Below, piece by piece: positions 38,801-59,434 of a DNA stretch of 64,000 nucleotides; within the stretch, counting starts at the first letter, position 1, and each line of letters begins with the position of its first letter. The notes below the pieces were generated by a model. That model was not told the DNA's origin. It searched no databases and saw only the letters and a program-made list of their open reading frames with translations. Position numbers and translations under genes: made by a program. The stretch comes from Liolophura sinensis (Eukaryota > Mollusca > Polyplacophora > Chitonida > Chitonidae). The stretch is taken from contig NC_088306.1 of assembly GCF_032854445.1 (NCBI RefSeq), positions 5,390,373 to 5,454,372 of the forward strand. The letters run 5' to 3'.

Positions 38801-41800
38801 TTGACTAAGGCATGAAGCACCATTGAAATAAATGAATAGATGGAGATAATGATTTGAAATGTTTTGAATGTAAAATGATTTTGTTTCATAAGTTTCTTAT
38901 ATCTACTATTTATTTTCTGTATGTGTAAGACTTATTGATGAACTGTTCACCTCATCCTCCTTTTTTTTATTTCATTATAGATAACACCATGGCCCCATAC
39001 AGTAGAACCTTACCGCCAAGACGAAGTTCTTCAAAAACAAAAGCTGTGCTGGGAGGGGAACCAATTTCAGTTGATACAGCTAAGGTATGAATTATGTATT
39101 ACCGTCACTTTGAGTTATTTTTCTTGAATTTTGAGGCTTGTCACGCCATAAAATTTGTGAGCTTCTGCGTCATATTTACATAGTAAGAGCTAAAAGGATG
39201 AAAAATAAATCACTTTAGTAAATAATTGAAAGGAACAGAGAATATATTATTTGCTCATACTCATAAATGAAAACATGTACATGTACGTCTGCCTTAAAGC
39301 CAGGAGACCTGGGATCAAACCCAGGTTGTGTCATATCAAAGACTTAAAAAATAGGGGACTTTTTGGTGCCTCGCTTGGCACTTAGTACTGAGAGGTGAGA
39401 GCAGGAAACAGGACTGATTGGCTCGGTGTCAGTATAATGTGACTGGCTGGGGTGTCATGCCTAGTGTCTTTAGCAAGACACTTCAGTAAGGGCATCAGTT
39501 TGACTGCATGGACTCACCCTTCTATAAGAAGATGCAGCATACTTGTGTGACTCTCCTCATAATATCACTGATAAATTGTTAAGTATGACGTTAGATGCTC
39601 AAGCATTCATTCATTCATAAACTTTGGCTGCTTCATTGTGGCCAGTATTGTGCAGAATGGGATTTTCCGGCTGTGTACGGTGACTTTGTGCTTGTATGTA
39701 CGAAGTGTTGTGTTTGTAACCTACATGTGCAGTACATGTACTGTATTTCATTGCATAATGCAGGTTAACGACTGCCAATGTTGCTCTTGTGAGATCTGTA
39801 AATGATATCCCATTAAACTAAAATCAGTATCTTTGTGGGATGTTTTTTTTTTCCAGCTCTCAGCAAAACAGTATGTATGGTTTAAATGTAACAGAACAGA
39901 CTCCTTATAGAGCATGCGCTGCTCTCTAGGTTGGGTTTACACCACTGCCACCGCTAGCAGCTTTTGTACAGAAATTTTGAATGATGCTGAGGTCACTGGA
40001 GTCACATTGATGAGGCTGGAAAGGATGTCAGAAAACACAAAAACTCTCAACCTTTGTGTCTAATGATACTTTTACACATGCATTCTCTTTATCTAAATTA
40101 AGTGTGATTCTAACCATCACCTGAAACCATTTTATCAATGAATGCTGATTAAATAGTTCTGCATGAGGACAGCAGTGACGAGGCTAATTAAGCGTGTGTC
40201 TCTCAGGCTCCAAAGGTCAGGCTTGTCTAGTGATGGCAGTGATGTAAAGTGAGAGAGTGATACATGCACTGCAAGGAGCATGATCACAGAACAGTATAAA
40301 TGGTATGTGTCTGTATGTTGGACATTTTTATCTGGCATTGAGATAAAAAGACCTGATTTCCTATCCTTGCATTTTACTCGGACTTTGAATGCTAACATCA
40401 GGTGTATACAGGTTTTAAAGTGAACTGCTGTCAAAAACAACATTAAACACCAGATTGAGTCAAGCTAAGAATTAAACTAATTTGAGAAATATTTAAGAAC
40501 TGTTAACAGCTAAGTTTTTAATAACTCCCACCTGCGTGTCATTTTGTTTTCTACACTACACAGGGACAGGTATCTGTGGTGTTTATGATTGGGAGTAAGT
40601 AAACCCGTTCTGTAACACCATTCTTAGCTGAGGTGTGATGTTTGTGAACAGCACTTCATGAGTAGGCTGAAATCACATGATAATATTTGTGAACACCACT
40701 TCATGAGCAGGCTGTGAACACCACTTCATCACCAGGCTAAATTCACATGGTAATGTTTGTGAACAGAACACCACTTCATCAGTACACTGTTTTCACATGA
40801 TATTGTTGTGAGCACCACCTCATGAGTAGGCTGAATTCACGTGATAGTGTTTGTGAACACCACTTAATGAGTAGGCTGATTCACATGATAATGTTTATGA
40901 AAAGCACTTCATCAGTAGTCTGAATTCACATGATAATGTTTGTGAACACCACTTCATGAGTAGGTTGAATTCGCATGATAATGTTTGTGAACACCACTTC
41001 ATGAGTAGGCTGAATTCACGTGATAATGTTTGTGAAAAGCAATTCATGAGTAGGCTGATTCACATGATAATGTTTGTGAACACCACTTCATGAGTAGGCT
41101 GAATTCACATTACAGTGATGTCAGCATCACTTCATCAGTAGACTGTCTTCACATGATAATGTTTGTGAACACCACTTCATCAGCAGGCTGAATTCACATT
41201 ACAGTGATGTCAGCATCACTTCATCAGTAGACTGTCTTCACATGATAATGTTTGTGAACACCACTTCATCAGTAGACTATCTTCACATGATAATGTTTGT
41301 GAACACCACTTCATGAGTAGGCTGAATTCACATTACAGTGATGTCAGCATCACTTCATCAGTAGACTGTCTTCACATGATAATGTTTGTGAACACCACTT
41401 CATGAGTAGGCTGAATTCACATTACAGTGATGTCAGCATCACCTGATCAGTAGACTATCTTCACATGATAATGTTTGTGAACACCACTTCATGAGTAGGC
41501 TGAATTCACATTACAGTGATGTCAGCATCACATCATCACTAGGCTGAATTCACATGATAATGTTGTGAATATCACTTCATCAGTAGACTGTCTTCACATG
41601 ATAATGTTGTGAGCTTAGATGTAAATTAGAGTGTCCTCTTGTGCAGATGTCAGCATCACTTCATCACTAGGCTGAATTCACATGATAATGTTGTGAATAT
41701 CACTTCATCAGTAGACTGTCTTCACATGATAATGTTGTGAGCTTAGATGTAAATTAGAGTGTCCTCTTGTGCAGATGTCAGCATCACTTCATCACTAGGC

Positions 41801-44800
41801 TGAATTCACATGATAATGTTGTGAATATCACTTCATCAGTAGACTGTCTTCACATGATAATGTTGTGAGCTTAGATGTAAATTAGAGTGTCCTCTTGTGC
41901 AGATGTCAGCATCACTTCATCACTAGGCTGAATTCACATGATAATGTTGTGAATATCACTTCATCAGTAGACTGTCTTCACATGATAATGTTGTGAATAT
42001 CACTTCATCAGTAGACTGTCTTCACATGATAATGTTGTGAGCTTAGATGTAAATTAGAGTGTCCTCTTGTGCAGATGTCAGCTTTATGTGTATCAGGTAC
42101 AAGTATATGTACAACATGCAGTGTGAAGTAGCTGTAACTCTTTTAGGTCACCACTGACTTAGGTTAGATGTTAGATTCTTGGATTTAGTCCAGCTCATCC
42201 TGGCTTCCTCTCTGGTCGTACGTGGAAAGGTCTGTCACCAACCTGCGGATGGTCATGGGTTTCCCTTGGGCTCTGCCCGGTCTCCACCCACCATAATGTT
42301 GGCTGCCGTCATATAAGTGACATATTCTTGAGTACGGCGTTGAACACCAATCCAATAAATAAATAAATAAATTCTGGGACTTGCATCGTCATTTCACCTG
42401 TCTGCTGAACTGTGTTTGATCTACTTGTTCTCACGGTTAGCTACATATACACGTTGACACAGGTCATGTAGAAGAATAGGTCTATTCGTAACAATAAACT
42501 TAACACTGTTAGAGTTGTGTACAGTTTCTGCTTTTCTATTTCCTATTACAGAGATGAACATAATTACTCAAACTCATTTAAGCTGGATAGTATATACTTT
42601 AAACACCCTTGTTATGAAAGAGGTGTGATTTTATCAACTAGGTAAAACTTAAGTCAGAATAAAATATCAGTTTGATTATTTTTTAAATTCATATGTGTGC
42701 ATATACCTATAAATCTCTGTATCGGTAACATCAGTCCAACTTTAGTATATGATTGTAATGCCACTTGGGAAGTTGAAATAGTTAATTGTGCACACATTTT
42801 TTTTCTGTGTGTGTTTTAGTCTTTTCTTGTTTTTTTGTGTATCGGGGGGTGGTGGGGGCCTCCATGGCTCAGTTGGTTAGCGCGCTAGTGCAGCATAATG
42901 ACCCAAGAGTCTCTAACCAATGCGGTCGCTGTGAGCTCAAGTCCAGCTCATGCTGGCTTCCTTTCGGGCCGTACGTGGGAAGGTCTGACAGCAACCTGCG
43001 GATGGTCATGGGTTTCCCCGGGCTCTGCCCTGTTTCCTCCCACCATAATGCTGGCCACCGTCGTATAAGTGAAATATTCTTGAGTACGGCCTAAAACACC
43101 AATCAAAGAAATAAAATAAATTTTATGTGTCTGTGTTGTAGTCTGTGCTTGTTAATTTACGTTTAGTAAATTAGTAAGATAAATGTGAAGATTATAATTT
43201 CTTCCTGATATACAGTATTAATCCTGCAGAGACAAAATATACCAAGAGGTGATCCTAAATACCCACCATACAAAAGTGTTACGGTATTGAAAACGGCAAC
43301 AGAAAACAGACTCTGTGACAATGTAAACAATGCTTTATATATAAAATGAGACGTACAGTTTTACAGACAGTTCAACAACAACAACATAAAAAAACACACA
43401 CATCAGTATTACCGGTCTTTAAAAGTTTCCTGTTCACCTTTGCATCCCAAGGAACGTATTCCAGGAGATCCAACGTAAAGACCATGGGATAAAGACACAC
43501 TTCACACAAGTCACAAATTGTCCCCGTCCGGTACTTCGCTAGGTTAGCGAACGCGAACACAGTACACAGGTTACACAGAACTGGAACAGTCAAGCCTTTG
43601 AATGACGTCACACCCGCAGAGCACAACACAGGGTAAATACAGGCATGTAGGTATAATCCACTTTAGAACAGTCACAGCTCCCGCAGGAACTCATAAACGA
43701 GCCGTTCAGAGACGTAGAGTAATGTCACCTTGTGGCAGAACGAACGTCCTTTGCAAAACTGAAAACTTCAGTTTAGAGTCCTTGACGACCTTGTCGGTCA
43801 GCGTGTTAAACAAATTAAACAGTCAACACTGTATAATCATAATAAAGATCCGAACACCAATAAACGTGACTTCCGCAGAAATTCACATAAACCAGACATC
43901 AGTACTACTGTGGTACACAAACGGTGCCGGCATAAAAATCTGTCCTCCCAAATGAAACTGGCATCACCAGCTCATATAAATATAATGGACTCGATACGAG
44001 AGCGTCGCACACTCTCCTGTTTTGGGAGCTTATTGTGTAGATACATCAGATATGTTATCCTGCATACTATACCCCACGAATGTACATTTTTGCACATGTT
44101 AAGTCACAACTTTCTTGCAGATACAGGTGTCAGTTTTAAGTGTGTTTGATGGTTATCAGCTCATGTTATCATGGTGTTTCATCAGGAGCTGCGAATGAGC
44201 ATATCAGGATCCTGTATTCACTCTTTGAGCCTGGACTGGAAAAAAGCCGGGATCCTCTTCCAGAATGTCACCAGTCCATTCCCATATGGACTGGTCACTC
44301 CTAAGGTAAGCTTTGCTGCGTGTAATATATCTTTCTGCATGATTATTTGGCTTGTTCATCATAAATACATAAAATTTCTTGAACTTGTGTCCAAAAGGCA
44401 AAATACTTATAAAGGGAGATAACTCTAATCAGTTTTCCATGAGCTTCTTTCCATGGCTATGCTGTTTTGGTCATGCGTGGCCATTTGTCACACTGATGTC
44501 ACTGTTCTGGTTTTTACTCTCCATGCTGTAGTCCCTTATATTGTATCGCTGCATAAACCAGGGTTCTGCTGGTGGACTAAGCACCACCGTTACATTGTTT
44601 TAAGGCTATTGATTAAAAGTGATGAGAACACAGCATTTTGAGTATTTCTATACCAGGGTCCGGTTGTGCCAAAGGGTGTTAGCGACTAAACCTGGTTTAA
44701 ATTTATGTTTAAAGCGATGTTAACGTTAACTAGGAGTTAAATCGGCTCTAACCCCGCATTAACTGTACCCCATTGATTGAGGAAGGTTAAGTCTGTCCAA

Positions 44801-47800
44801 CTCATGCAATAAAATTTCTTTTTTTTTTTGTACTTGTCAAACTCCAAAAATTAATACCTTATCAGTAATGGGAGGAATAGGCCTTCAATTTGACCCATGG
44901 TTCGTTCCACCACCTCTGATACTTATCGAAAGAATTTGTGAATATATTATCAATTAATGTTGCTGATCGAGATTGTACTCTAGTTGGCTTAGTAATTTGG
45001 AGGAGAAAGTAATTTGATTTCATTATTTCAAGAAAGTCTTTGGATGGAGCATGATATTCAGTTTTTAAAAGGTCAGTTTTAAAGTCCCCCATTATAACTT
45101 TTTGTTTTGACCCTCTTCGTCATTTTTCTACGATATGTAATATATGATTATTAAAATCATTGACATCTTTACTAGGTGATCTATATACAACACCAATAAG
45201 ATATGAATTTAATCTCTATGAACAGACATTCACAACAACCAGAGTTGCTGAGAAAACTTAGATCTTCCCTTACTTTAAATGATGTAATGTCTAATGTAAC
45301 ATAGGGAGCGATGCCTCCACCCTTATGCTGGGTACATTGCAAAGAGAACATATTGTAACCTGGAATTTCAAAAAGTTCTTCAGTGGTTGAGTTAAGCCAA
45401 CATTCCGAGAATCCAAGGACAGAAAAGGGATAAGAGAGACTATGAACAAAGGCAGTTTTTTCTGTGAAATGCTTGCTCAAGCTTCTGGCATTCCAATGAA
45501 AAAATGATTGATTGGTTGTAATCAAAATTTTGAAGCTGAGGTTGAGAATTGAAAGACAATTAGGAAAAGTAAATCACTTCATGTGAATTGGCTTCAGTCC
45601 AGTGCGTTGTCTCACAGTTATCGTCAGTTGATACTGATGTATGTTCAGTGGCATTTAAATCAGATGGATTAAAACACATGCTGTCTAACATCTCAAGATT
45701 ATACTGACCGGGTTGATGAGAGGATGGAGTATTTGGTGGTGGGATATGTTTTTTACATGAAAATGGGAAGACTAATGACAGGATCGAGAATGAAAAGTGT
45801 CCACTAATATCAGTCATTTGAGAAGACCTTACAGGTGCATATAGTACTCATGTAGGTAATGTTTCTTAACGTATAAATAAACAACATAAACCCAGAAACA
45901 GAAAAAAGGATCAGATGAAATTTAACATTTTCAATAAATAGATGAAATTTGTGTGCTCCTCAGTAGAGTGCTCTATAGTGAATAATAGCTAACTCATACT
46001 GAAATTTACAAGTTACTGACTTTAAACAGGAATAATACAGTGAATAATATTTTACCTCTATATTTACATAACAGCAAAAGGTTATAGTATAAGGGCTATT
46101 TCTGCTGCAGTTTGTGCATCTATTTGTCCATCTGTGGCTTGTACATCTTCTATTTGTCCATCTGTGGCTTGTACATCTGCCATTTGTCCATCTGTAGCTT
46201 TTCCATGTGCTATTTGTCCATCTGTGGCTTGTACATCTTCTATTTGTCCATCTGTGGCTTGTGCATTTGCTATTTGTCCATCTGTGGCTTGTGCATTTGC
46301 TATTTGTCCATCTGTGGCTTGTACATCTTCTATTTGTCCATCTGTGGCTTGTACATCTTCTATTTGTCCATCTGTGGCTTGTACATCTTCTATTTGTCCA
46401 TCTGTGGCTTGTACATCTGCTATTTGTCCATCTGTGGCTTGTACATCTTCTATTTGTCCATCTGTGGCTTGTACATCTGCTATTTGTCTATCTGTGGCTT
46501 GTACATCTGCTATTTGTCCATCTATGGCTTGTACATCTGCTATTTGTCTATCTGTGGCTTGTGCATCTGCTATTTGTCCATCTGTGGCTTGTACATCTGC
46601 TATTTGTATATCTGTGGCTGGTACAACTGCTATTTGTCCATCTGTGGCTGGTACATCTGCTACTTGTCCAGTTGTGCTTATACATCTGCTATTTGTCCAG
46701 TTGTGGTTGCACATCTGCTATTTGTCCATCTGTGGCTTGTACATGTATATTTGCTATTTGTCCATCTGTGGCTGGTACATCTGCTATTTGTCCAGTTGTG
46801 GTTGTACATGTGTTATTTGTCCAGTTGTGGTTGTACATCTGCTATTTGTCCAGTTGTGGTTGTACATCTGCTATTTGTCCATCTGTGGCTTGTACATGTA
46901 AATTTGCTATTTGTCCATCTGTGGCTGGTACAACTGCTATTTGTCCATCTTTCACTGCTTGGACAACTTCTCTTTGTGTGTCTGATCATCAGGCTGTTCA
47001 AATAAATGATCTCACACCATTGAGTATTTGTTTTCCAGATAGGAGGAGGGCGTGGCATAGTGCTAGCCATCCAGGGTCACATTTTGCAGCATTTGCTGTT
47101 TGACTCTGGGGCGGATTTCACTGATCTCAGGTAAATATTAACATGTTGTAATCTGTTAACTACTGTACAGCTTGGTAGACCTCTGGCTAACACATCTAGA
47201 CGTCCAGGTAGAGCTTTACTTCTTTATTTATTTTCTATTGATATTATTTTTTGGTAAATTTGTTATTCTAAAGTTCATATGTTAAACCCAAAACAAATGT
47301 CCTGTCTATTGTTAGTCATGTGTTTATGTTATTAAATGTGCGGGTGATAATAGCTACTTCCGAAACTAATGTTTATTTATTTATTTGATTGGTGTGTTGT
47401 GCCATATGCAGGAGTATTTCGACTCGGACACAACCCATTTGCGTGCATTCTTATTTTATTTATTTGATTGGTGTTTTACGCCGTACTCAAGAATATTTCA
47501 CATATACGACGACGGCCAGCATTATGGTGGAAGGAAACCGGACAAAGCCCGGGTGAAACTCATGACCATCCGCAGGTTGCTAGCAGATTTTCCCATGAAC
47601 GGGCATGCATTCTTAGGGCCTGACTATAATTACAATACCAGTCTGATACTTCTTATAGTAAAATGCATGTGCTGTGCTCTATTTTCGTTTTACATCATTG
47701 CCATTACTAGCAAATTTTGTACAGAAATCTTGAACAATACCAAGGTCACTGGGGTCATTTTGTTGAGGAAGGGAGTGATGTCAGAAACAGTTAATTCTCT

Positions 47801-50800
47801 GTTCATACTGGATATGTACATTCTTTTTGTATAAAGTTGGCCTATATACACAGCATCATTCCAACGGACACATGAAGCAATTTTATTGATGAATGGTGAT
47901 TATTAAATAGTTCTGCACAAGAAAAGCAATGGTTAGGCTAAGAATAAACAACCCTACATGCATCACACTGGTTCAATAGCTCAAGCTTGTCCAGTTGTGG
48001 CATTGATGTAAAGCAGGTGTAGAGAGTGGCACATGCGCTGTGAGGAGTATATATATATATACCAGGCGGTGTTCAATAAACTTGCAAAATGACAATAGTG
48101 CTTGGTGTGTTGTGAAAATAACTTTTAGTGTGGAATTGTCTGGATTGGCAAACATTGTCTGGTTTCTGTGTATACTTATTTTGATACAAGAGTAATGCTA
48201 TCACAACTGTCATTTCTCTTATTCAACTTTTTTGTGACCAAGTATAAGAAACGACAAATTTACTATCATTACTGGAATATAAACACAACAGACACATGAC
48301 AACCGTTCTTACTTCTGTCTAATTCCTAGCGAATTTGTCACTCAACCAACAGAAATTACATTTTCCCCTGCTGTTAGTGCCTTTAAGGGTGAAAAAAGAA
48401 ATGTTGGTTTGAGTAGGAACTTTGTCTGTCCTTAAATATGTATATGTGACCATTTTCTAAGCTTTATTTCAATCTCACCTCAAACTATTTTTTCTATTTG
48501 CCTAAGTCTTGTTTGGTGAATTTGTAGTTTGAGACTGTACACCTGTTTGTAATTTTTGGCTCCAGAGCCTTTGAGTGCCCAAAAATGTATTTGGATCGAT
48601 TTAGAGTAGAATCTATGTTTGCTTGTGAGTTCCTGCTTTTTTTTTTTATTTGTTTTTTTTCTTTTTTTCTCACAGTCAATTACGACCATCACCTGTAAAA
48701 TGCCGCAGTGTTGCTGTGAAGGCTGTATGTGATATGTGGTGGAGAGCTGGGTGTGGCCTAGAGAGCACAGTCTGTCTCCCCCAGGAGGACAGTGTCTTCA
48801 CAACCCAGACTGGGTACAGGGAAGACGGCATTACAGAAAAGGTAGGCACTTTTTTTTATTTTGCATGTACAAAGTACAGCAGCAGCTTTATGTCATACGC
48901 AGAACGTTGGCGTAGGTATCGACGTCAAAGACAGCACCTGGGTGAAACTTTTATCAATTGAAAGCAGAATACTCAAGGTTTCTGAAAAGTATCATAATTT
49001 ATTATTTTCATGAGATTTAACTAAATAACCTGTAGAACAAAATGGCAACGCTTCACAAATGGCTGGTGTGAGTCGAGGCAGCCATATTGAGAATTTTATC
49101 CAATCAAACATGTTGCTATTAGATTGTGCAGCCTAAGCTGTGACATAGCCTTTGCCCATTCACTCAATGAAGTGACATGATAACGCAGAACTATTGCGTG
49201 TTGAGATCATTTACCATGATTTAGTTAAGTGTAGCCAAAGGGCCATTTCACAAAGTGTTGCAGGGCAGGTCTGTATCATTTATGGACCACCACAGATGTA
49301 AAATTAATTGATTTACAAGCTGTGTAATATTCAATGACTGTATTACAAAATATGTTAGACAGTAGCATACCGCCTCAGCACAAACGACAGTCATCTCTCC
49401 AAATAAGCCAGACATAACTTGTGGGATATTTCCTGAGTTCAGTTTTTAACAAAACCGCTGAGTTTCAAGTTTGTCATGCAAGTCTAGAAAAACTTAAACT
49501 AGTCAAATAAAAAATGTTAAGATTAGTAATATTTTTAGAGCAGTAAATTGTTTTGAAGCCAAGACTTAGCCTATGTTAAGTCTAAGAGAGCTTTATGATT
49601 CCAGGCCATAGGAATCTGTGGAGGACAACAACTACATGTAACCTCATTCCTCAACCTTTTCGCACATGAAAGAACAATTTTCATTGCAATTTGTGCACAT
49701 TAATTTATTGATCTGATTTTGGGAACAAAACTGGACTGGATGGATTGGCCAGTTTCAGTGCTTCACAAAAAGTATAGTTTTATCAGTCAGAATGATACTT
49801 TCAGAATATGTTTGAAAAAATACCTTTGCAAAGATGCGAAAAGGTTGAAGACTTAGAGCATTCTGTTGTTTTGAACGTTGCGTGTTTTCTTCTTGAGCCA
49901 TGGGAAAGTGTAGGGGACCACAACTATACGAATGGTCAAACAATACTTTCATAATGCTTGACTCTTGAAGTCGTGATATATCTAAACTCTTAACGTTGTA
50001 AGAGATTCATTGTATTAGATGAATCTTAGTGCATGGATTTTTATATAAACAATTGAGTGCGGCTATTAATACAGTAGAGTGGTGATAATAGGGGAGTCTC
50101 AAGTTGGAACTCTTTTGTCATCACAGTGCCTCCTGTGTCATGTGAATGGTGACAAATGTTGTTGACATTAATTTACTGATCACCTGTCTCATCCTTTTCC
50201 AGAGGCTCAAATGACACATCTTTCCTTTAGGAACTCCTGAAGTTCACAAACAACCAAATTTTCAATCTTCTCTGTCATTCCCCCACTCTAAAGTACTTTT
50301 TATGACGCCTTTTTGAGGTGCCCATTTTGTAGTGAGGGAGATCAAAAGTGGTTTTTGACAGGTCACAAGATACAGTTGGTCAGAACTTTTTCTACCTTAA
50401 AAGATAGAAGAGCTCGAACTCAAAACACCCCTAATGAAATTAACCACTGCCAATTATATTCTGGCATGGTACGTGTACATTGATTTGGTGACTTTTGTTT
50501 TATTTTCCAGCTTCATCTGTTTAAGTTTAACAACTATGATGACCTGGAGAGCTTTGTGAAGAGGTACTTTGATTATGTAAGTCTGATTGTTTCTACAGCA
50601 TTTGTTGATAGTTTATTCCATGGGTTTAACATTGGGGTAAAATTGTTTCACATACTGGGGCATATGTTAATGCGATGAAACTTATGGGTTGAGAAAACTG
50701 TCATCCATCGATAAATGTCTGACGGTGACCTCCATGGCTTAGTGGTCAGTGTGCTAGCGCAGCACAATAACCCAGCAATTTCCAACCAACATGACCAATG

Positions 50801-53800
50801 CAGTTATGGTGAGTTCAAGTCCATTTTCTGCAAGCAGTGTGAGAATGCCTTTCAGCTTATTACCCAATATATATTACATTTGAATTTGTCCGTGACATTC
50901 ATAGCTGATATGTAATTTGGACATGTGTTTGTGACTGTGCATTTTCGCCTAAATCTGATTTTTCGCATGGCCAGCGTTGCCCATGTACATTGTGTATACA
51001 CAGGTGGCTGACATGCTTGAACTGTAAATGATGGGTTTTTCCCTACTTCTCAGTTTGAGGGTGACTTGGATTACCTACACACTTGATGTGTAATTTGTGG
51101 ATTTTTCTTCTCAGTTTGAGGGTGACCAGGGCTGCCTTCTCTTCCTTTACAGTCTAGTATTATCCAGGGGATTCCCCAGGTGGGTACATGTAACAACCGA
51201 GAACTGTACCAGCTGCATGTCGGATATGCTTTGTTGTTCTTTGTTTTCTTTTTCTACATTTAGAATGGTAATTTTTTGCTAACATTTCATTCTTTGCACA
51301 TTATTAAATTAAATGTAGATTTTTTGCTAACATTTGACATCTAGTGCATCATCTTTTGCATGGCTGACATTGTCAGGTACATCATTAACATAATATTTCA
51401 CATTTGCTGCAAATCTTCTTTCATGTATTTCATAAATGTTGCACACCTTAATAGTCTTGTGCATTTGATTTTCTGGGTGACATGTATGCATTCTCATTGT
51501 ACTTGTACATATGATAGGGGTAATACTGCAATGGTATCATTGAGGCAGTTAAGTAAAGCTAACCTCTAAAGCTCTTAATCTGAAACTTTTAAATTGGCTG
51601 AGGGTACATGCTCAGTTAATTATTCAAAATTATCAAAGTTTCTGAGGTGTACATGAGGTACATTATTCATTTCGTACATTATTTCATGTTGAAAACTGTT
51701 CCCAAGGTGTATCTGAAATATAGGTACATGTAGGTGGTTATTATCGGATTGTATAAATGAGGTGTACATCTTTACCTCACACTGAGGTATGCACCTCATC
51801 TATTCCTCACACTGAGGTGTACACCTCATCTATACCTCACACTGAGGTATACACCTCATCTATTCCTCGCACTGAGGTATACACCTCATCTATACCTCAC
51901 ACTGAGGTATACACCTCATCTATTCCTCGCACTGAGGTATACACCTCATCTATACCTCACACTGAGGTATACACCTCATCTATTCCTCGCACTGAGGTAT
52001 ACACCTCATCTATACCTCACACCGAGGTATACACCTAATGTCATTAAGAGATGGCACCAGAAATCTAGAACATATTCAGTGTGCAGATTTTTGACAGATC
52101 ATAACGAAATTGTGTAAAGCATTGTTGCATGGATTGAAACTACTAGAAGCATGCAACTACTGTGTTATTTAAAATAAGAATTTAAAGACTGCATGTTTTA
52201 GCTGCTTTTGTTTTCAGAATTGCTGATGACCAGGGAACGAGTTCAGGAGGGTGTCAGAAACTACTGACAGACACGGAGAACTGTACTTTCTCCCTCATCA
52301 ACCTGATGCTTACTGGTAGAGCAGTACAGTACCTACACAATGGAGTGTCCCTCTATAATGAGTTTGGCCACCTAGTGGTAAGACATGACCACATTTAATT
52401 CAGACATTTCAAAAATTTAATTTCTTTTGTTGGGACCAATGCAGTCGCTGTGAGTTCAAGTCCAGCTCATGCTGGCTTATTCTCCGGCTGTATGTGGGAA
52501 GGTCTTCCAGCAGCCTGCGGATGGTCGTGGGTTTCGCCCGGGCTCTGCCCGGTTTCCACCCACCATAATGCTGGCCGCCGTCGTATAAGTGAAATATTCT
52601 TGAGTACGGCGTACCAATCACCAATCCAAAAAAAAAAAAAAAAATCTTTTCTTGGGTACCTGTCAAACGTCGGGACTTAAAGCCACAACTTCATTGGAGC
52701 ATTCAGGGACAAGTCAATGCAACTTACCAGATTTCTAGTACAAATGTAACGTTATCTCTGCTTACATTTTATGTGCGTCATCAAGGCAATATGATCGTTT
52801 TCTGTCCACATGTTGCTAAACCAAAGTTCTATACTGCATGTCATTGATACATGTACATGTACAATGTCCAGTAGGATTATGTAACCTGATTTTCAATCAT
52901 TAACATTCTGTTTTAATACAGGTTTTCCTTTTGTTTATAGTTAACTTTTTGTGTCATCTTGCATAAAGGTTATTGTCTTAAAGCAAAATGTTTTTTTCCT
53001 GTAATGAGTGGCTAAATATTGGCCTTGGTTTATTTTCCAGCCAAAGCCATTGAAGGGCGTGGAGGAAAGGTGTTCTGTTGGGTTCTTGTATCTAGACAAG
53101 AGTGAGTCACGGGAAACAAGGACACAGGTTTGTTCTCTCTGTATTGTCACTTGTGTCCTGTGTTCTGTTGGGTTCTTGTATCTGGACAAGAGTGAGTCAC
53201 AAGAAACAAGGACACAGGTTTGTTCTCTCTGTATGATCTCTTGTGTCCTTCTGTGTTGTGTGAGGTTCTTGTATCTGGACAAGAGTGAGTCACAAGAAAC
53301 AAGGACACAGGTTTGTTCTCTCTGTATTGTCACTTGTGTCCTGTGTTCTGTGAGGTTCTTGTATCTGGACAAGTGTGAGTCATGGGGAACAAGGGCACAG
53401 GTTTGTTCTCTCTGTATTCTCACTTGTGTCCTGCGTTCTGTGAGGTTCTTGTATCTGGACAAGAGTGAGTCACAAGAAACAAGGACACAGGTTTGTTCTC
53501 TCTGTATGGTCTCTTGTGTCCTTCTGTGTTGTGTGGCGTTCTTGTATCTGGACAAGTGTGAGTCATGGGGAACAAGGACACAGGTTTGTTCTCTCTGTTT
53601 GATCTCTTGTGTACTCTTGTGTGCTGACCCATACAAGTGGCTGTCATCATATATGTTACGCTACAATGAATAAGTCAGTGATATTTAAGTTTCAGGGTTT
53701 CACAACAGGTTCTCCCTTTAAGGTTCAGTTTTGCATCCTAAATGCCATTTTCGTACTAATACATGAATAATACAATGTACATATCATGGTGGTGGAAATT

Positions 53801-56800
53801 AAGGTGGAATTATACATACATGTTACTTCTCACACAGTCGACTAGGAGACAATTTAATTACTTATCTTTAAATCATCAGGTAGATCCAGGGTCAGTACTG
53901 GGTCGAGTCACACCTACAACCCTTAAAGAGGAAGTTGTAACTTCCTCGCTTGGCGTTCAGCATGAAGGGAATAGTGCAACGACTGGTTGACCCATGTCAG
54001 TGTAATGACTCTGGCAGGGTGCATTACTTGCCTTCAGTAAGGCGTCTAAGTGAAGTAGCACCAGGTAAAAGAGCAGTGGAAACCCATCCTGCAACAAAGA
54101 GGCACATTACATGCACTCTAAGCATTCCTGATTCCTTCGTTGTCATATGACTGAAAAATTGTTAAGTACGATGTTAAACCCCAAGCACTCACTCGCTCAC
54201 TCACTCAATCACTTAGATCATCAGGGACCTCCATGGCCTGGTGGTTAGCGTGCTAGTCTAGCGCAATGACCCATGGGCCCCTCACCAACTTACTGTGAAT
54301 TCAAGTTCAACTTATGCTGGCTTCCTCTCAGGTCTCCTCCTGCCCAGTTCCTCCCACCAAAATGTTAGCTGCTGTAAGTCAGTGTATATTAGTAAGTTAA
54401 ATATTCTTCAGCACGGCATAAAACATCAGTCAAATAAATAAATAAATAAATATGAAACATTAAAGTTGTATGTGTGTATTTTCAGGTTGGGAGTATGCTT
54501 AAGACACCCAGGTGCCCAATATGGCTGACACAGGTGAACGGCATGATGGGTATTCTGTTCAGCACAAATCCTGAGCTGGTCAGTCACTGGAGGGTAGAAC
54601 ATCGCTTCTTTCTGTACTACTACACAGGGCAGCCTAATCAGAAACAGCAAACCTGTCTCAGTATAGGTCAGTACATGTACCAAACTCTAAAACTCATCTT
54701 CTCCATTTTAGAGCAAAAACCTGAAAAATATTAAATTTTATTTGTTCGATTTCTCAAGAGTAATTCATGTCACATGTAGTTTCATGGGTGGCGGAACCAT
54801 AGTGCCTGGGATAAACTACAATGGCAGCCCTGATGGATGATCCACTGGAAAGTTTCCATGTCACATTTTCTAGTGAATTCAGTGTTCAAATAGTGTATCA
54901 TGCTAGTATATATATGTAGGTTGTCACTTATCGCATTTATTGCAACTGTTAATATATCCAACGTGGCTATCTAACCTATCCAACACAATGAATATACAGC
55001 CCCTAGTCTCGGGTTATTAAGTAGAAATAGGAAGGTCTGTCAGCAACCTGCGAATCGTCGTGGGTTTCCCACGGGCTCTGCCCGGTTTCCTTCCACTATA
55101 ATGCTGGCCGCCGTCATATAAGTGAAATATTTTTGAGTAGGGCATAAAACACCAATAAAAAGTAAAATAAATTAAGTAGAAATAGACACAATTATGAAGC
55201 AGACTGCCAGCAGTTTTGTGTGCTCTGTCCATATTACTTACAAGATAATTATATTCATTGTAAAACTTAAGAAACATTTGGTGGAATAACCTTGACACAC
55301 CTCTTTTCTCAGTAATAACTTGTGAAGTTGATTAAAATCTTCCCATGTCACACAGGATCTAACAAATGCTTTAAGATCAGATACATGTATGTACGTGCCA
55401 TATGCAGACGCATTTTGTAAAACTTGCGCAGATATGCATGTAAATGTATATCTCTTTTGTCCCATTTTATTCATATACTTTTGCATTCCTGTAAACACTT
55501 ACATTTACTTACGCATCCCTGTAAACACATACATGTACTTACGCATTCCTATAAACACGTACATGCACTTACGCATCCCTGTAAACACTTCCATGTACTT
55601 ACGCATCCCTGTAAACACTTACATGTACTTACGCATTTTTGTAAACAAGTACATGTACTTGCGCATTCCTGTAAACACTTACATGTACTTATGCATTCCT
55701 GTAAACACGTAATGTATTTGCTCATTTTGTAAACACTTACGTACACTTACGCATTCCTGTAAAGACGAACATGTACTTACGCATTCCTGTAAATGTGTGC
55801 ATTTACTTTTGCATTGTTGTAAATAGTTTAGTAATAACTGGATTTTTTTATCTCTTTGCAGACACGCGGTTTAACAGGCGTGGCCGAATCAAAACAGCTC
55901 TTGCTAGGAGAGATGCTGAAGACAAAACACCTGCGCTGGAGAGCTGTATTTTAACAAAGTAAGTTCTTTTGTAGCTTGAAGACTGGAGGTTTGTTAGGTA
56001 CAGTAAATGGTTAGAAAGATGGCCAATTTGTAAGGTACAGTAAATGGTTGGAATGATGGCCGATTTGTTAGGTACAGTAAATGATTAGGATGATGGTCGA
56101 TTTGTTAGGTACAGTAAATGGGTAGAAAGATGGCCGATTTGTAAGGTACAGCAAATGATTAGAATGACGGACGATTTGTTAGATACAGTAAATGGTTGGA
56201 ATGATGGTCGATTTGTTAGGTACAGCAAATGGTTAGAATGATGGCCGGTTTGTCAAGTACAGTAAATAGGTTAGAATGGTGGCCGATTTGTTAGGTACAG
56301 TAAATGATTGGAATGAGGGCCAATTTGTTAGGTACAGTAAATGGTTAGAATGATGGATGATTTGTTAGGTACAGTAAATGGTTGGAATGATGGACGATTT
56401 GTTAGGTACAGTAAATGGGTAGAAAGATGGCCAATTTGTAAGGTGCAGCAAATGGGTAGAAAAATGGCCGATTTGTAAGGTACAGTAAATGGTTGGAATG
56501 ATGGCCAATTTGTTAGGTACAGTAAACAGTTAAAATGATGGCCGATTTGTTAGGTACAGTAAATGGTTAGAATGATGGCCGATTTGTTAGGTACAGTAAA
56601 TGGTTAAAATTATGGCCGATTTGTTAGGTACAGTAAATGGTTAGAATGATGGCCAATTTGTTAGGTACAGTAAATGGTTAGAATGATGGCCGATTTGTTA
56701 GGTACAGTAAATAGGTTAAAATGATGGCCGATTTGTTGGGTACAGTGAATGGGTAGAAAGATGGCCGATTTGTAAGGTACAGTAAATGGGTAGAAAGATG

Positions 56801-59434
56801 ACCGATTTGTAAGGTACAGTAAATGATTAGAATGATGGCTGATTAGTTGGGTACAGTAAATGGTTAGAATGATGGCTGATTTGTTACGTACAGTAAACGG
56901 TTAGAATGATGACCGATTTGATGGGTACAATAAAGGGTTAGAATGATGGCCGATTTGTTAGGTACAGTAAATGGTTAGAAAGATGGCCGATTTGTTAGGT
57001 ACAGTAAATGGTTAGAATGATGATCGATTTGTAAGGTAGAGTGAATGGTTAGAATGATGGCGGATTTGTTAGGTACAGTAAATAGGTTAGAATGATGACC
57101 GTTTTGTTAGGTACAGTAAAGGGTTAGAATGATGGCCGGTTTGTTAGGAACAGTAAATGGTTAGAATGATGGCTGATTTGTTAGGAACGGTAAATGGTTA
57201 GAATGATGGCCAATTTGCTAGGTACAGTAAATGGTTGGAATGATGGCCGATTTGTTGGCTACAGTAAATGGTTAGAATGATGGCCAATTTGTTAGGTACA
57301 GTAAATGGTTAGAATGATGATCGATTTGTAAGGTACAGTAAATGGTTAGAATGATGGCCGATTTGTTAGATACAGCAAATGGGTAGAAATATGGCCGATT
57401 TGTAAGGTACAGTAAATGGTTAGAATGATGGCTGATTTGTGAGGTACAGTAAACAGTTAGAATGATGATTGATTTGTAAGGTACAGTAAATGGTTAGAAT
57501 GATGGCTGATTTGTTAGGTACAGTAAACGGTCTGAAACCCATTTACTGAAATTTGGCCGATTTGTTAGGTACAGTAAATAGTTGGAATGATGGCCGATTT
57601 GTAAGGTACAGTAAATGGTGAGAATGATGGCTGATTTGTTAGGTACAGTAAATGGTTGGAATGATGGCCGATTTGCTAGGTACAGTAAATGGTTAGAATG
57701 ATGGCTGATTTGTTAGGTACAGTAAACGGTTAGAATGATGGCCAATTTGTTAGGTACAGTAAATGGTTAGAATGAGGATCGATTTGTGAGGTACAGTAAA
57801 TATTTAGAATGATGGCCAATTTGTTTGTGGAATGATGGCCGATCTAATCCCTTTTCCTCCACCTATAAACCCGACTTCCGCCTTATGAGTGAGCAATTCT
57901 TAAAAGTGGGATTAAACAACCAGTAAACACATTTAACAAATAAGGTAAATCAAAAATGTGATATTTTTTCTGATTAAAGGATATATATATATTTCGGCCA
58001 TTCTCAGAACCGAATCTGTTATATGTATAATCTTCTCCGAGAACAAATTTCATGTTTTAAACAATTTTGTTGCCATTTATGATCTACATTTAGAAGAGGA
58101 ATTATGTATTTAAACTAATTATTTGCACCTTCAGAGTTAAATCACAGACCATCTCAAAACAGTTTGCCGACCTTTTTTTTCGTTAGAGATGTTTCATTGT
58201 ATTGAAATGCAAACATGGTACCTGAATTCTCCATGGCAAATTACAGATCGAGTTTGGGTTTCAGACCATTTCATCTATTTCTGACAAAATTCCAGCCATT
58301 TTTGTCCACTTTTGGCCCTACATAATGTTTGGAATATTTCTTTAGAATTAGAATGAATAGAAGCATTCACATTGCTTGACCATGGCAGGTTATCAAATTT
58401 CAAAGTTTATACATTTTCAACAAAATTATGATGTTTTTTTATCCACTTTTTGGTCTTAAACTGTTTTCTGGATTTTTGTCGGAACGATGTCTGTTAAAAT
58501 GAAATTAGGTATGTGGCTTCACCATGACACGTTTTCTTCACTTCTGTGTTTTCTTGGTACATGGCTTCACCGTGACACATTTTCTTCACTTCTGAGTTTT
58601 CTTGGTACAAAGCTTTACCATGACACGTTTTCTTCACTTCTGTGTTTTCTTGGTACATGGCTTCACCGTGACACATTTTCTTCACTTCTGAGTTTTCTTG
58701 GTACAAAGCTTTACCATGACACGTTTTCTTCACTTCTGTGTTTTCTTGGTACATGGCTTCACCATGACACGTTTTCTTCACTTCTGAGTTTTCTTGGTAC
58801 AAAGCTTTACCATGACACGTTTTCTTCACTTCTGTGTTTTCTTGGTACATGGCTTCACCATGACACGTTTTCTTCACTTCTGAGTTTTCTTGGTACAAAG
58901 CTTTACCATGACACGTTTTCTTCACTTCTGAGTTTTCTTGGTACAAAGCTTTACCATGACACGTTTTCTTCACTTCTGTGTTTTCTTGGTACACAGCTTT
59001 ACCATGACACGTTTTCTTCACTTCTGTGTTTTCTTGGTACACAGCTTTACCATGACACGTTTTCTTCACTTCTGTGTTTTCTTGGTACACAGCTTTACCA
59101 TGACACGTTTTCTTCACTTTCTGCGTTTTCTTGGTACACAGCTTTACCATGACGCGTTTTCTTCACTTCTGCATTGTCTTGTGTTCATAACTTCACCATT
59201 ACATGTTCTTCACTTCTGTGTTTTTCGTGGTAGATGGCTTTACCAGGACAGTTTTTTTCACTTCTATATTTTCTTTGGTAGATAGCTTCACCTTGACAGG
59301 TTTTCTTCACTCCTGCATTTTCCTCAATACATGGCTTCACCATTACAGATTTTCTTCACTTCTGTTTTTTTTCTTTTCTCTGCAGGTGGTATGACGCCGA
59401 GATCAGCTGGAACGGAACAACACCCTTTTATTGA
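32750..59434 (+). CDS. MINDY4B: MINDY4B-type protein, predicted inactive deubiquitinase, 14 exons
   Basis: Exons 32750-32895, 34285-34567, 36991-37078, 38981-39084, 44186-44305, 47039-47130, 48676-48841, 50511-50576, 51115-51179, 52218-52377, 53041-53127, 54486-54666, 55862-55958 and 59386-59434 all have GT-AG borders and join in phase to 567 residues. The N-terminal 140 are polar and probably disordered. The rest follows the MINDY4/FAM188B fold: GGEPIS...LR, FPYGLV, GIVLAIQGHILQHLLF, MWWRAG, GFLYL, GSMLKTPRCPIW, GILFSTNPEL...WRVE...LYYYTG, LESCILTKWYDAEISWNG. MINDY enzymes trim K48-linked ubiquitin chains with a Gln, Cys and His. Here the Cys of GGPCG is Arg252 (GGGRG), the His of SHFSILFS is Met479 (MMGILFS), and the upstream Gln is Thr or Pro, as expected for MINDY4B, annotated inactive in human. 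The start is uncertain: the frame is open back to the acceptor at 32615. Introns hold many arrays. Confidence 0.88.
34068..34150 (+). mobile_element. SINE family A fragment, plus
   Basis: GGTGGTTGTGGGTTTCCCCGG, GCTCTGCCCGGTTTCTTCCC and ATGCTGGCTGCCG. Only the middle of the element remains. Confidence 0.7.
34285..34567 (+). CDS. MINDY4B: MINDY4B exon 2
   Basis: Acceptor ATTATGGCAG at 34275-34284, chosen because it accepts phase 2 from exon 1. An alternative would be an unspliced start at ATG 34265. It encodes a Ser/Pro/Asp-rich stretch, then LVFTERQLSRLATFLDDSL. Donor AAG|GTAAGA. Confidence 0.75.
34668..34875. mobile_element. MITE family M1
   Basis: CTAATTCCTCAAGCTTTTCACATATG at the left and CATGCAAAATGTTGAAGAATTA at the right are inverted repeats. 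The interior is shared with the copies at 8361 and 49643. It lies in MINDY4B intron 2. Confidence 0.75.
34935..35110. repeat. 27-bp minisatellite
   Basis: About six units of CTCATGATTTGACACCTAGAA plus TTGTTT. The TTTGACA-CTAG core is also the core of the larger array at 35690, so the two probably share an origin. Confidence 0.85.
35160..35345. repeat. Dispersed repeat family D
   Basis: AATTCTGCTTAAGCCATGGTG, TTAGAATAAAACCCTACC and GGTAAATTAACAAGAGGC recur in diverged form at 62990-63170. No coding capacity. Confidence 0.6.
35473..35592 (-). mobile_element. SINE family A fragment, minus
   Basis: GATTTATTTATCTGATTGGTG, ACACCATACTCCCAATATTTC, GAGGCCAGCATTATGATGGG and GGGCAGAGCCCTGGGGC. Only the tail half is present. 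It is inserted between the two parts of the TTTGACA-type arrays. Confidence 0.8.
35690..36815. repeat. ~28-31-bp minisatellite in MINDY4B intron 2
   Basis: About 38 units of the type TATACTCAGGATTTGACATC plus TAGGCTGCTTA. Blocks of several variant units recur together, for example the CAGGAATTGACACCTAGAC ... CTTACCGTATATACTCAG block at about 36200-36300 and again at 36430-36540, so segments of the array have been copied as groups. Confidence 0.9.
36991..37078 (+). CDS. MINDY4B: MINDY4B exon 3
   Basis: Acceptor GTATTTGTAG, donor CTGG|GTAACT, phase 1 out. It encodes ILETDPRRPSTDKVKSFY...WPEPTVRL. It directly follows the ~30-bp array that ends about 170 bp upstream. Confidence 0.85.
37548..37818 (+). 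mobile_element. SINE family A, full length, plus
   Basis: The best copy in the window. A-box TGGCTCAGTTGG at 37557-37568, B-box-like GTGAGTTCAAGTTC at 37623-37636, the conserved central and 3' body, and an (AAAT)n tail to 37818. The head has the look of a tRNA. It lies in MINDY4B intron 3. Confidence 0.92.
37955..38355. repeat. 66-bp tandem repeat, about 6 copies
   Basis: TAGTTTTCACCAGAGTTT recurs at 37961, 38027 and 38093, then every 66 bp. Since 66 is a multiple of 3 the plus frame stays open, but it repeats one 22-residue hydrophobic segment and shows no splice context in frame with MINDY4B. Confidence 0.93.
38630..38838 (+). mobile_element. SINE family A, plus, 5'-truncated
   Basis: GGATCCTCTCACCAATGCGATC, GTTCAAGTCCAGCTCATGC, GTCTGCTAGCAACCTGG, CTGCCCAGTTTCCTTCCACC and TTGAAATAAATGAATAG. 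Diverged copy in MINDY4B intron 3. Confidence 0.85.
38981..39084 (+). CDS. MINDY4B: MINDY4B exon 4
   Basis: Acceptor TTTCATTATAG, donor AAG|GTATGA. Encodes NTMAPYSRTLPPRRSSSKTK and then GGEPISVDTAK, the segment that opens the MINDY4 catalytic-domain homology. Confidence 0.88.
39280..39600. repeat. Dispersed repeat family B, inverted
   Basis: Reads GGGATCAAACCCAGGTTGTGTC, GCCTCGCTTGGCACTTAGTACTGAGAGG and TGATAAATTGTTAAGTATGACGTTAGATG, the reverse complement of the arrangement at 28150-28445. It lies in MINDY4B intron 4. Confidence 0.65.
39900..40281. mobile_element. MITE family M3
   Basis: Left end CTCCTTATAGAGCATGCGCT...TTACACCACTGCCACC is inverted at the right end as GGCAGTGATGTAAAG...CATGCACTGCAAGGAG, giving imperfect terminal repeats of about 50 bp. 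The interior matches 8601-8915 and 47648-48049. No coding capacity. Confidence 0.75.
40620..42085. repeat. 44-bp array with 128-bp higher-order units
   Basis: The monomer, about 44-46 bp, reads ACCACTTCATGAGTAGGCTGA then TTCACATGATAATGTTTGTGA. On the left the monomers vary. From about 41520 a 128-bp composite unit appears that includes GAGCTTAGATGTAAATTAGAG, spaced 41611, 41739, 41867 and then 42039 (128 plus 44). That last spacing shows gain of a single monomer inside a composite unit. Confidence 0.92.
42180..42375 (+). mobile_element. SINE family A, plus, 5'-truncated
   Basis: GTCCAGCTCATCCTGGCTTCC, GTCTGTCACCAACCTGCGG, CTCTGCCCGGTCTCCACCC and AATAAATAAATAAATAAATT. It lies in MINDY4B intron 4. 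Confidence 0.9.
42855..43120 (+). mobile_element. SINE family A, full length, plus
   Basis: Head GGCCTCCATGGCTCAGTTGG with A-box at 42865-42876, B-box-like GTGAGCTCAAGTCC, full body and a short AAATAAAATAAA tail. Close in sequence to the copy at 37548. Confidence 0.92.
43380..44120. other. CpG-rich block in MINDY4B intron 4
   Basis: This block holds more CpG than the surrounding A/T-rich intron (CCCCGTCCGGTACTTCGC, GCGAACGCGAACAC, GACTCGATACGAGAGCGTCG), a TGACGTCA octamer at 43603-43610, and a TATATTTATATGAGC-like TATA motif when read on the minus strand. It may be a solo LTR or other recent insertion, or an internal promoter. No terminal repeats could be defined. The short open frames resemble no family. 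Confidence 0.35.
44186..44305 (+). CDS. MINDY4B: MINDY4B exon 5
   Basis: Acceptor GTTTCATCAG, donor AAG|GTAAGC, 40 codons. Encodes ELRMSISGSCIHSLSLDW and PFPYGLVTPK, the position before the (lost) nucleophile. Confidence 0.9.
44655..44780. repeat. MITE-like dispersed element
   Basis: CCGGTTGTGCCAAAGGGTGTTAGCG and TTAACGTTAACTAGGAGTTAAATCGG form an A/T-rich, partly palindromic segment of the type seen in many invertebrate MITEs. Only one copy is visible here. Confidence 0.35.
44818..45530 (-). pseudogene. Non-LTR retrotransposon endonuclease fragment
   Basis: On the minus strand, 45525-45181 encodes WNARSLSKHF, GFSECWLN (the SE-WL motif), GGGIAPYV and, after a frameshift near 45190, a VVYRSPS-type strand. 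Then 45092-44895 encodes MGDFKTDLL and ITKPTRV, SATLIDNIFTN. These are successive motifs of an apurinic-type LINE endonuclease (CR1/L2/Jockey-like). There is a frameshift and an in-frame stop, no reverse transcriptase, and an A-rich run (plus-strand T run at 44818-44830) at the 3' end, so the copy is a truncated relic. It lies in MINDY4B intron 5. Confidence 0.8.
46110..46960. repeat. 30-bp minisatellite in MINDY4B intron 5
   Basis: About 28 units of TATTTGTCCATCTGTGGCTTGT plus ACATCTGC. The 30-bp period keeps three plus frames and one minus frame open for 200-300 codons. The array ends about 75 bp before the acceptor of exon 6. Towards the right the variant GTCCAGTTGTGGTTG replaces GTCCATCTGTGGCTTG. 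Confidence 0.93.
47039..47130 (+). CDS. MINDY4B: MINDY4B exon 6, substituted active-site Cys
   Basis: Acceptor TTGTTTTCCAG, donor CTCAG|GTAAAT, phase 2 out. Begins IGGGRGIVLAIQGHILQH. In active MINDY4 the equivalent is GGPCGVLA-VQ, so CGT (Arg252) at 47051-47053 replaces the catalytic Cys codon. Confidence 0.92.
47369..47605 (-). mobile_element. SINE family A, minus, nested or duplicated tail
   Basis: TTTATTTATTTATTTGATTGGTG at 47369 starts one copy that breaks off after about 55 bp. A second, better copy starts near 47450 (TTTACGCCGTACTCAAGAATATTTC, GACGGCCAGCATTATGGTGG, CATCCGCAGGTTGC). One inserted in or beside the other. MINDY4B intron 6. Confidence 0.85.
47648..48049. mobile_element. 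MITE family M3
   Basis: Left CTTATAGTAAAATGCATGTGCTGTGCTC...TTTACATCATTGCC and right GGCATTGATGTAAAG...GCACATGCGCTGTGAGGAG are inverted repeats. The interior is shared with 39900-40281. MINDY4B intron 6. Confidence 0.75.
48676..48841 (+). CDS. MINDY4B: MINDY4B exon 7
   Basis: Acceptor TTTTTTTCTCACAG after a very long T tract, donor AAAG|GTAGGC. Encodes VAVKAVCDMWWRAGCG and TGYREDGITEK, matching the AIADILWRAG and KY-ADGV-E stretches of MINDY4. Confidence 0.9.
49643..49853. mobile_element. MITE family M1
   Basis: The best copy: CTCATTCCTCAACCTTTTCGCACATG at the left, AGATGCGAAAAGGTTGAAGA at the right. MINDY4B intron 7. Confidence 0.8.
50511..50576 (+). CDS. MINDY4B: MINDY4B exon 8
   Basis: A 22-codon exon, LHLFKFNNYDDLESFVKRYF. 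Acceptor TATTTTCCAG, donor TAT|GTAAGT. It corresponds to the L-CYEDL--FL segment of MINDY4. Confidence 0.88.
50728..50830 (+). mobile_element. SINE family A, head only, plus
   Basis: ACCTCCATGGCTTAGTGGTCAGTGTGC, CACAATAACCCAGCAA and GTGAGTTCAAGTCC, then unrelated sequence. A tRNA-like head without the body. MINDY4B intron 8. Confidence 0.75.
51115..51179 (+). CDS. MINDY4B: MINDY4B exon 9
   Basis: FEGDQGCLLFLYSLVLSRGF. Acceptor TTCTTCTCAG, donor CCCAG|GTGGGT, phase 2 out. A near-copy of the acceptor and first bases lies 61 bp upstream and leads to a stop if used. Confidence 0.88.
51757..52036. repeat. 30-bp minisatellite with 60-bp alternation
   Basis: Units of CTCACACTGAGGTATACACC plus TCATCTATAC. 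Two variants (CCTCACACTG and CCTCGCACTG) alternate, giving a 60-bp higher-order period. MINDY4B intron 9. Confidence 0.93.
52218..52377 (+). CDS. MINDY4B: MINDY4B exon 10
   Basis: IADDQGTSSGGCQKLLTD...LINLMLTGRAVQYLHNGV. Acceptor TTTGTTTTCAG, donor GTG|GTAAGA. LINLMLTGRAV matches ELVNLLLTGKAV of MINDY4. It follows the 30-bp array at 51757-52036. Confidence 0.92.
52434..52640 (+). mobile_element. SINE family A, plus, 5'-truncated
   Basis: ACCAATGCAGTCGCTGTGAGTTC, CCGGCTGTATGTGGGAAGG, CTCTGCCCGGTTTCCACCC, TTCTTGAGTACGGCGTACC and a poly(A) run rather than (AAAT)n. MINDY4B intron 10. Confidence 0.9.
53041..53127 (+). CDS. MINDY4B: MINDY4B exon 11, first unit of a donor-bearing repeat
   Basis: PKPLKGVEERCSVGFLYLDK...TRTQ. 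Acceptor TATTTTCCAG, donor CAG|GTTTGT after 53127. Family alignment (GFLSL..., then VG-FLKTPR-PIW) supports use of this first donor. Five more copies of the same donor follow in phase at 53217, 53310, 53400, 53490 and 53583. Confidence 0.85.
53066..53640 (+). repeat. 90/93-bp array made of exon 11 end, splice donor and intron start
   Basis: GTTCTTGTATCT recurs at 53082, 53172, 53265, 53355, 53445 and 53538 (spacing 90, 93, 90, 90, 93). Each unit holds coding sequence for FLYLDK...TQ, then CAG|GTTTGTTCTCTCTGT. All units are in the MINDY4B frame and the frame stays open to about 53671. The first unit is the real exon end. Confidence 0.95.
53880..54215. repeat. Dispersed repeat family B, inverted, with CTCA microsatellite
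   Basis: CCTCGCTTGGCGTTCAGCATG, GTGCATTACTTGCCTTCAGTAAGG and CATATGACTGAAAAATTGTTAAGTACGATGTTAAACC match the inverted form at 39280. It ends in a short CTCACTCG-type repeat (about 54186-54210). Confidence 0.65.
54225..54452 (+). mobile_element. SINE family A, plus, with internal deletion
   Basis: Head ACCTCCATGGCCTGGTGGTTAGCG, GCGCAATGACCCATGGG, then a shortened body (CTGGCTTCCTCTCAGGTC, CCCAGTTCCTCCCACC) and an AAATAAATAAATAAAT tail about 30 bp before the exon 12 acceptor. Confidence 0.85.
54486..54666 (+). CDS. MINDY4B: MINDY4B exon 12, substituted active-site His
   Basis: VGSMLKTPRCPIWLTQV then NGMMGILFSTNPELVSHW and FFLYYYTGQPNQ. Acceptor ATTTTCAG, donor ATAG|GTCAGT, phase 1 out. The active enzyme has SHFSILFS here; Met479 occupies the His position. 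Confidence 0.93.
55025..55172 (+). mobile_element. SINE family A, 3' half, plus
   Basis: GGAAGGTCTGTCAGCAACC, CCCACGGGCTCTGCCCGG, ATAATGCTGGCCGCCGTC and AACACCAATAAAAAGTAAAATAAA. MINDY4B intron 12. Confidence 0.88.
55490..55830. repeat. 30-bp minisatellite in MINDY4B intron 12
   Basis: About 11 units of CTTACGCATTCCTGTAAACA plus C.TACATGTA. It ends about 30 bp before the exon 13 acceptor. Confidence 0.9.
55862..55958 (+). CDS. MINDY4B: MINDY4B exon 13
   Basis: TRFNRRGRIKTALARRDAED and PALESCILTK. Acceptor TCTCTTTGCAG, donor ACAAA|GTAAGT, phase 2 out. The 37-bp array begins about 25 bp after the donor. Confidence 0.9.
55985..57835. repeat. 37-bp minisatellite, about 50 copies, MINDY4B intron 13
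   Basis: Units of GGTTAGAATGATGGCCGATT plus TGTTAGGTACAGTAAAT, nearly all 36-38 bp. This is the longest array in the window. It begins about 25 bp after the exon 13 donor. Confidence 0.95.
57836..58500 (+). other. MINDY4B intron 13, between arrays
   Basis: A/T-rich, no gene and no recognised repeat. Confidence 0.4.
58505..59375. repeat. 48-bp minisatellite ending at exon 14 acceptor
   Basis: About 18 units of CACTTCTG.GTTTTCTTGGTAC plus the alternating ATGGCTTCACC or AAAGCTTTACC and ATGACACGTTTTCTT. The period keeps frames open on both strands. Units degrade to the right and run into the pyrimidine tract of the exon 14 acceptor. Confidence 0.94.
59386..59434 (+). CDS. MINDY4B: MINDY4B exon 14 and stop
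   Basis: WYDAEISWNGTTPFY and TGA at 59432-59434, matching the K-W---NWNGSDP C-terminus of MINDY4. Acceptor TTTTCTCTGCAG, whose pyrimidine tract is continuous with the degenerate end of the 48-bp array. Confidence 0.93.

Follow-up and report, generated by a model that had tools for sequence, protein, structure and literature searches.

A minisatellite built from an exon end, its splice donor and the intron start in a MINDY-3/4 family gene of Liolophura sinensis

In the human gene IFI6, a minisatellite with a repeat unit of 12 bp spans an exon-intron boundary. This array, also known under the gene name 6-16, was reportedly found by Turri and co-workers in 1995 to carry multiple splice donors. 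Downstream repeat units of IFI6 can act as donors, as stated in PMC4526556. The array analyzed here is located in the window, i.e., the complete stretch of 64,000 nucleotides of Liolophura sinensis DNA that was studied, and its kind has already been described, with the human IFI6 minisatellite being the closest precedent. In both cases, a tandem repeat supplies several donors to one transcript. The unit of the L. sinensis array is much longer (90-93 bp), and downstream use has been reported for IFI6, whereas the downstream donors described here are putative ones read from the sequence.

Tandem duplications of exonic or exon-edge segments that include splice signals are also treated for ATP2A1, potato RdRp and the fission yeast genes SPOG_01682 and SOCG_00815 (PMC4974935, PMC3629103). 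Here, too, a segment with splice signals was duplicated in tandem at an exon, but instead of the creation of a new intron as in these cases, an existing donor appears to have been multiplied beside an ancestral intron; the intron position at the array is common to two paralogues and a new intron is not evident by sequence. Furthermore, the locus resembles the competing alternative 5′ splice sites described in PMC9225289, where identical duplicated donors were studied, in that several donors face one acceptor. The events described there are donor pairs, whereas six exact donor copies at steps of 90-93 nt are found here.

The window gene was confirmed by profile comparison as a member of the Pfam family MINDY-3/4 (PF13898, family cut-off 27 bits). 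Exon 11, ending at the first donor, and exon 12 in joined form match positions 222-306 of the profile (1.8e-28, 100 bits). Exon 12 alone resulted in 74.6 bits, and exon 11 alone (29 aa) in a weak match below the cut-off (positions 222-240, 14.5 bits, E 0.018). The introns flanking exon 11 have a length of 663 and 1358 nt. A whole-genome family search, in which 14 candidates were scored, revealed 13 matches in three groups, namely the window and two regions of contig C11 at about 6.07 Mb and about 13.55 Mb. In two paralogues on this contig, an exon ends in phase 0 directly before VG (FEHYKSCQ/VGTYYKTPRFPIW and LEHYRYCE/VGWYLKNPMYPIW; the slash marks the splice position), and the window gene reads DKSESRETRTQ/VGSMLKTPRCPIW at the same place if donor 53127 is used. 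Since both paralogues have a phase 0 intron at the matching place ([QE]/VG), donor 53127 is, on this comparison, the ancestral donor. Compared with FEHYKSCQ and LEHYRYCE, the exon end DKSESRETRTQ has three additional residues and is dissimilar. A sequence search with E-values of up to 1 gave a single relative of solved structure, MINDY-3 (9rmd, E 0.0027), which aligns across the junction with a gap of three residues.

In a strong match, VNGMM is found in exon 12 at the place of SESHF and SETHL of the paralogues, so that the His position appears to be lost. At the Cys position, GGGRG (at 47042; window 47042-47101) stands against GGPCG and GGPCA in a weak local match (E 0.015-0.018). The apparent loss of these two positions, which we take to be the catalytic ones of the window gene, suggests that its protein is catalytically dead. 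Human MINDY4B is annotated as inactive. A dead enzyme would fit the putative label MINDY4B of the initial annotation. The triad of the MINDY family consists of Cys, His and Gln (PMC8424594), and MINDY4B is listed as a K48 cysteine protease in a table of PMC8424594, which speaks against the dead-enzyme reading.

Table 1. Features at the exon-edge array and its second place in the genome. Donor positions are the last exonic bases before GT.
Feature	Position	Strand	Remarks
Predicted ancestral exon (exon 11), 87 nt, encodes PKPLKGVEERCSVGFLYLDKSESRETRTQ	53041..53127	+	acceptor ttccag/CCA, donor CAG/GTTTGT; phase 0 at both ends
Repeat unit 1, 90 bp	53070..53159	+	holds the predicted ancestral exon end and donor 53127
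Repeat unit 2, 93 bp	53160..53252	+	donor 53217
Repeat unit 3, 90 bp	53253..53342	+	donor 53310
Repeat unit 4, 90 bp	53343..53432	+	donor 53400; opens the second 273-bp higher-order copy
Repeat unit 5, 93 bp	53433..53525	+	donor 53490; extra TCT as in unit 2
Repeat unit 6, 87 bp, cut short	53526..53612	+	donor 53583
First in-frame stop (TAA) on reading through the array	53671..53673	+	exon frame
Intron 11 if spliced from donor 1, 1358 nt	53128..54485	+	contains most of the array and the SINE-like repeat
SINE-like repeat	53880-54093		in intron 11; 4117 first-look candidates genome-wide, 40 scored
Exon 12, starts VGSMLKTPRCPIW	54486..54666	+	VNGMM at SESHF / SETHL of the paralogues
Second place, two full units and a partial third one	C12:6225173-6225432 (L002:1501-1754); search match at C12:6225173-6225426	-	whole-genome DNA search, ~80% identical

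The array was detected in the window by TRF at 53070-53612 (+) with a period of 90 (6.0 copies, 88% matches) and additionally with periods of 183 and 273. It spans the exon-intron boundary, starting within exon 53041-53127 and continuing into the intron. The array is a minisatellite whose six units each combine the final 58 nt of the MINDY-3/4 family exon, or a copy of them, with the donor CAG/GTTTGT and the start of the intron (Table 1). In the initial annotation, the 3′ half of the exon was described as repeated six times. The six repeats were recovered, and the repeated portion was corrected to 58 of the 87 nt, i.e., two thirds. A simple assembly artefact was rejected in view of the differences between the units, which amount to 4-11 sites.

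All six donors read CAG/GTTTGTTC and are in phase 0, and the 11 nt around each of them are identical. The donor-centred 28-mer occurs six times at 0-1 mismatches, compared to a mean of 0.00 in 100 shuffles. By sequence, each unit carries a putatively usable donor. The predicted strength of the array donors is only average, with a U1 duplex of -7.5 kcal/mol for each of them versus a range of -5.7 to -10.8 kcal/mol among six further family donors. Starting at 53008, the exon frame stays open up to the TAA at 53671-53673, and the exon would have a length of 87 nt with donor 1 and of 177, 270, 360, 450 and 543 nt with the following donors. Skipping of exon 11 (52377 to 54486) would likewise preserve the frame. 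The opposite strand is open as well (239 aa, 52941-53660). The donor positions given initially, their common phase 0 without a stop until about 53671, the unit spacing of 90 or 93 bp and the begin of the next exon at 54486 were all read again from the sequence, and the 0, 30, 61, 91, 121 or 152 added residues follow from the donor spacing.

The array probably arose by a tandem duplication of a segment that comprised the last 58 nt of the exon, the donor and 32-35 nt of adjoining intron sequence, after which a block of three units (273 bp) was amplified further. The surrounding genome stretch is very rich in tandem repeats. In the window, 22 arrays cover 13,584 of the 64,000 bases (about 21%), so that an exon edge inside an array is not surprising; this number is based on a hand-merged TRF list, in which short or overlapping rows were merged or dropped and each array was counted by its shortest period. 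The units differ pairwise at 4-11 of about 90 sites. For this reason, the complete array is not of very recent age, whereas very recent expansion had initially been one of two explanations proposed for the 3-bp indels; the ~80% identity of the second place suggests that the array may be old. The lengths of 90 and 93 bp differ by one 3-bp indel type, a TCT, which units 2 and 5 contain. Because only this one indel type occurs inside the 273-bp higher-order repeat, the length difference is most simply explained by one event. As the extra TCT also occurs in each of the two complete units at the second place, 93 bp is probably the older unit length, and the 90-bp form is most simply explained by a single 3-bp deletion that was copied with the units.

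The second place is located on the same contig as the gene at a distance of 781 kb. It was the only other match in the whole-genome DNA search (609 Mb, best candidates scored) and was recovered in the reverse search. Two patterns with up to 3 mismatches gave 8 and 7 matches, both places together, and 0 matches with the reversed controls. The genome searches score the best candidates only and further diverged copies are possible. What is new by these searches is that the exon-derived unit is now present at two places in the genome. At the second place, the frame seen in the array is likewise open across the two complete units (131 aa), and the donor in one of them reads GC instead of GT. A MINDY exon was not found beside it, since 0 of the 13 family matches (14 candidates scored) are located there. 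A second haplotype of the array was not among the matches listed for this one assembly. The second place was also considered as a MINDY pseudogene or segmental duplicate, which was rejected: about 20 kb around it match window positions 47000-58000 in the array and otherwise in pieces mostly recurring elsewhere, and these non-array matches look like dispersed repeats. At 8-9 kb from the second place, reverse transcriptase-like fragments (YIDDLL; L012:8294-9189, minus strand) were recognized by eye.

Two to three units 781 kb away without a MINDY exon found alongside, together with the exon end DKSESRETRTQ that is longer than and unlike those of the paralogues, would also fit a minisatellite that is an independent dispersed repeat, which entered the exon edge and supplied the donor. 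This origin is very unlikely, as the unit includes the family GFL.L-type stretch (VGFLYL) at the right alignment position, the donor sits at the ancestral intron position, and only two places were found in 609 Mb among the best candidates scored. The gene is the likelier source of the unit because the latter contains family exon sequence. Two neighboring bases read GA in units 3-5 as well as in the two complete units at the second place, which changes the family Gly codon, in contrast to TG in units 1-2. Therefore, on the basis of this one short motif, the second copy was probably derived from an already duplicated unit.

The SINE-like repeat of intron 11, which also occurs near the second place, was considered as a link between both arrays and rejected due to the opposite relative orientation and the 4117 first-look candidates genome-wide. 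Two donor-like sites with slightly better U1 pairing than the array donors are located at its edge (53879, CAG/GTAGAT) and inside it (54064, CAG/GTAAAA). Elsewhere in the window, two arrays of nearly one 39-bp unit (9298-10093 and 13972-15013) lie about 4 kb apart, and both are preceded by a stretch with weak similarity (71-72%) to the SINE-like repeat. By its sequence, this pair looks as if a repeat-bearing mobile element had been copied twice.

In the initial annotation, the 3-bp indels were also attributed to selection for frame. All six units share one frame without a stop and with only a 3-bp indel, as would be the case for a selected protein-length polymorphism with functional longer isoforms, an array kept in frame and a varying copy number. 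Furthermore, all six retain an intact donor and the open frame despite 4-11 differences, and a functional array would look likewise. However, the 3-bp indel is of a single type and carries little weight, because one event of such a length keeps the frame with a chance of about one in three. The mean dN of 0.108 is above the mean dS of 0.078 (15 unit pairs), i.e., purifying selection between the units was not seen in these pairs, and the 16 variable columns are distributed over codon positions 1, 2 and 3 as 8, 4 and 4. The family Gly of VGFL is kept in units 1-2 and replaced by R in units 3-5 and by A in unit 6.

Open frames also occurred in shuffled units and in other arrays. In tiled dinucleotide shuffles of one 93-bp unit, a given forward frame was open in 19-22% of 2000 cases and 1.03 of 6 frames were open on average. 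The null is somewhat generous, because it treats the copies as identical and the period as a multiple of three; six diverged units would all remain open with a somewhat lower probability than this figure. Among the other arrays of the window, 7 of 21 have at least one fully open frame (3 of these are under 80 bp). Eight other arrays reach 250 bp or more and have a shortest period divisible by three; four of these have a frame that is open throughout. The proportion changes to 4 of 11 if three arrays with an additional row divisible by three are counted too, none of which is fully open (1219-1585 with periods of 20 and 60, 55990-57825 with 37 and 111, 40713-42040 with 44 and 312). The second place, which has no evident coding role, is open in the same frame. 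Frame selection is not supported by dN/dS, codon columns, shuffles, other arrays and the open antisense strand (239 aa), and a selected length polymorphism is accordingly regarded as highly improbable. Special conservation of the donor was likewise rejected, as the longest invariant run, 20 bp around the donor, has a permutation p of 0.23; complete identity of the six units was seen in 21 of 85 nine-base windows.

The favored explanation, which we hold to be probable, is an exon-edge minisatellite in which donor 53127 remains the main donor and the five downstream decoys are rarely used, without selected isoforms; donor choice and neutrality are what we infer within it. The ancestral donor would stay the main one, and the downstream donors would be sequence-identical decoys inside an enlarged intron. 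Their use would be rare, as the exon lies between long introns (663 and 1358 nt) and 87 nt is the length at which it is best defined. As described in PMC9225289 for human minigenes in which 365-nt introns enclose a pair of identical strong donors, only the upstream donor was used. According to the same source, the upstream donor is preferred in strict exon-definition events with near-equal donors, and smaller exons are preferred in the exon-size data (all human). From the long flanking introns and this preference for upstream donors and small exons, donor 1 is expected to dominate, and we expect by this analogy that mainly donor 1 is used. Counter to this expectation, the donor-choice data are human, larger exons were skipped in PMC9225289 when both donors were weakened, the array donor is of only average strength, and downstream units are described as being used in IFI6 (PMC4526556).

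Alternatively, the equal donors could compete, with the intron-proximal ones prevailing in part of the cases. The downstream donors would then be used substantially without being selected, resulting in a protein ladder whose members carry between 0 and 152 additional residues. The six donors are identical over 11 nt with equal U1 duplex energy and the frame is open to 53671. Classical work, as summarized in PMC9225289, favors the donor nearest to the 3′ splice site, and in human events not matched for strength the downstream donor is preferred in all four intron-length classes (PMC9225289). This alternative is nevertheless rather unlikely: both introns are long, the strength-matched data favor the upstream donor and shorter exons, and donors 3-6 lead to exons of 270-543 nt. 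Moreover, every insert brings a membrane-like hydrophobic stretch, as each added unit contains a 19-aa window with a Kyte-Doolittle mean of 1.78-2.53, compared to at most 0.73 at the canonical junction. A hydrophobic insert at a conserved point of the fold would be more likely to harm than to benefit the protein. With donor 53127 as the main donor, occasional use of a downstream donor would result in longer in-frame proteins without a sign of selection.

In a much bolder reading, the array would be a graded protein-length dial: a dead MINDY protein would exist as an isoform ladder with 0-5 hydrophobic, possibly membrane-inserting segments at a conserved fold point, the rungs would vary between individuals, and the unit would have begun to spread as a dispersed minisatellite. 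We regard this combination as quite improbable. Most likely, the array arose as a neutral by-product in a genome rich in repeats, and it probably has little consequence for the biology of the window gene. In this array, the end of a coding exon has become a minisatellite, and the genome contains a further copy at another place. With six identical in-frame donors at regular steps and one acceptor, the array is also a natural test bed for donor choice, in which junction counts would therefore show the weight of exon length and distance.
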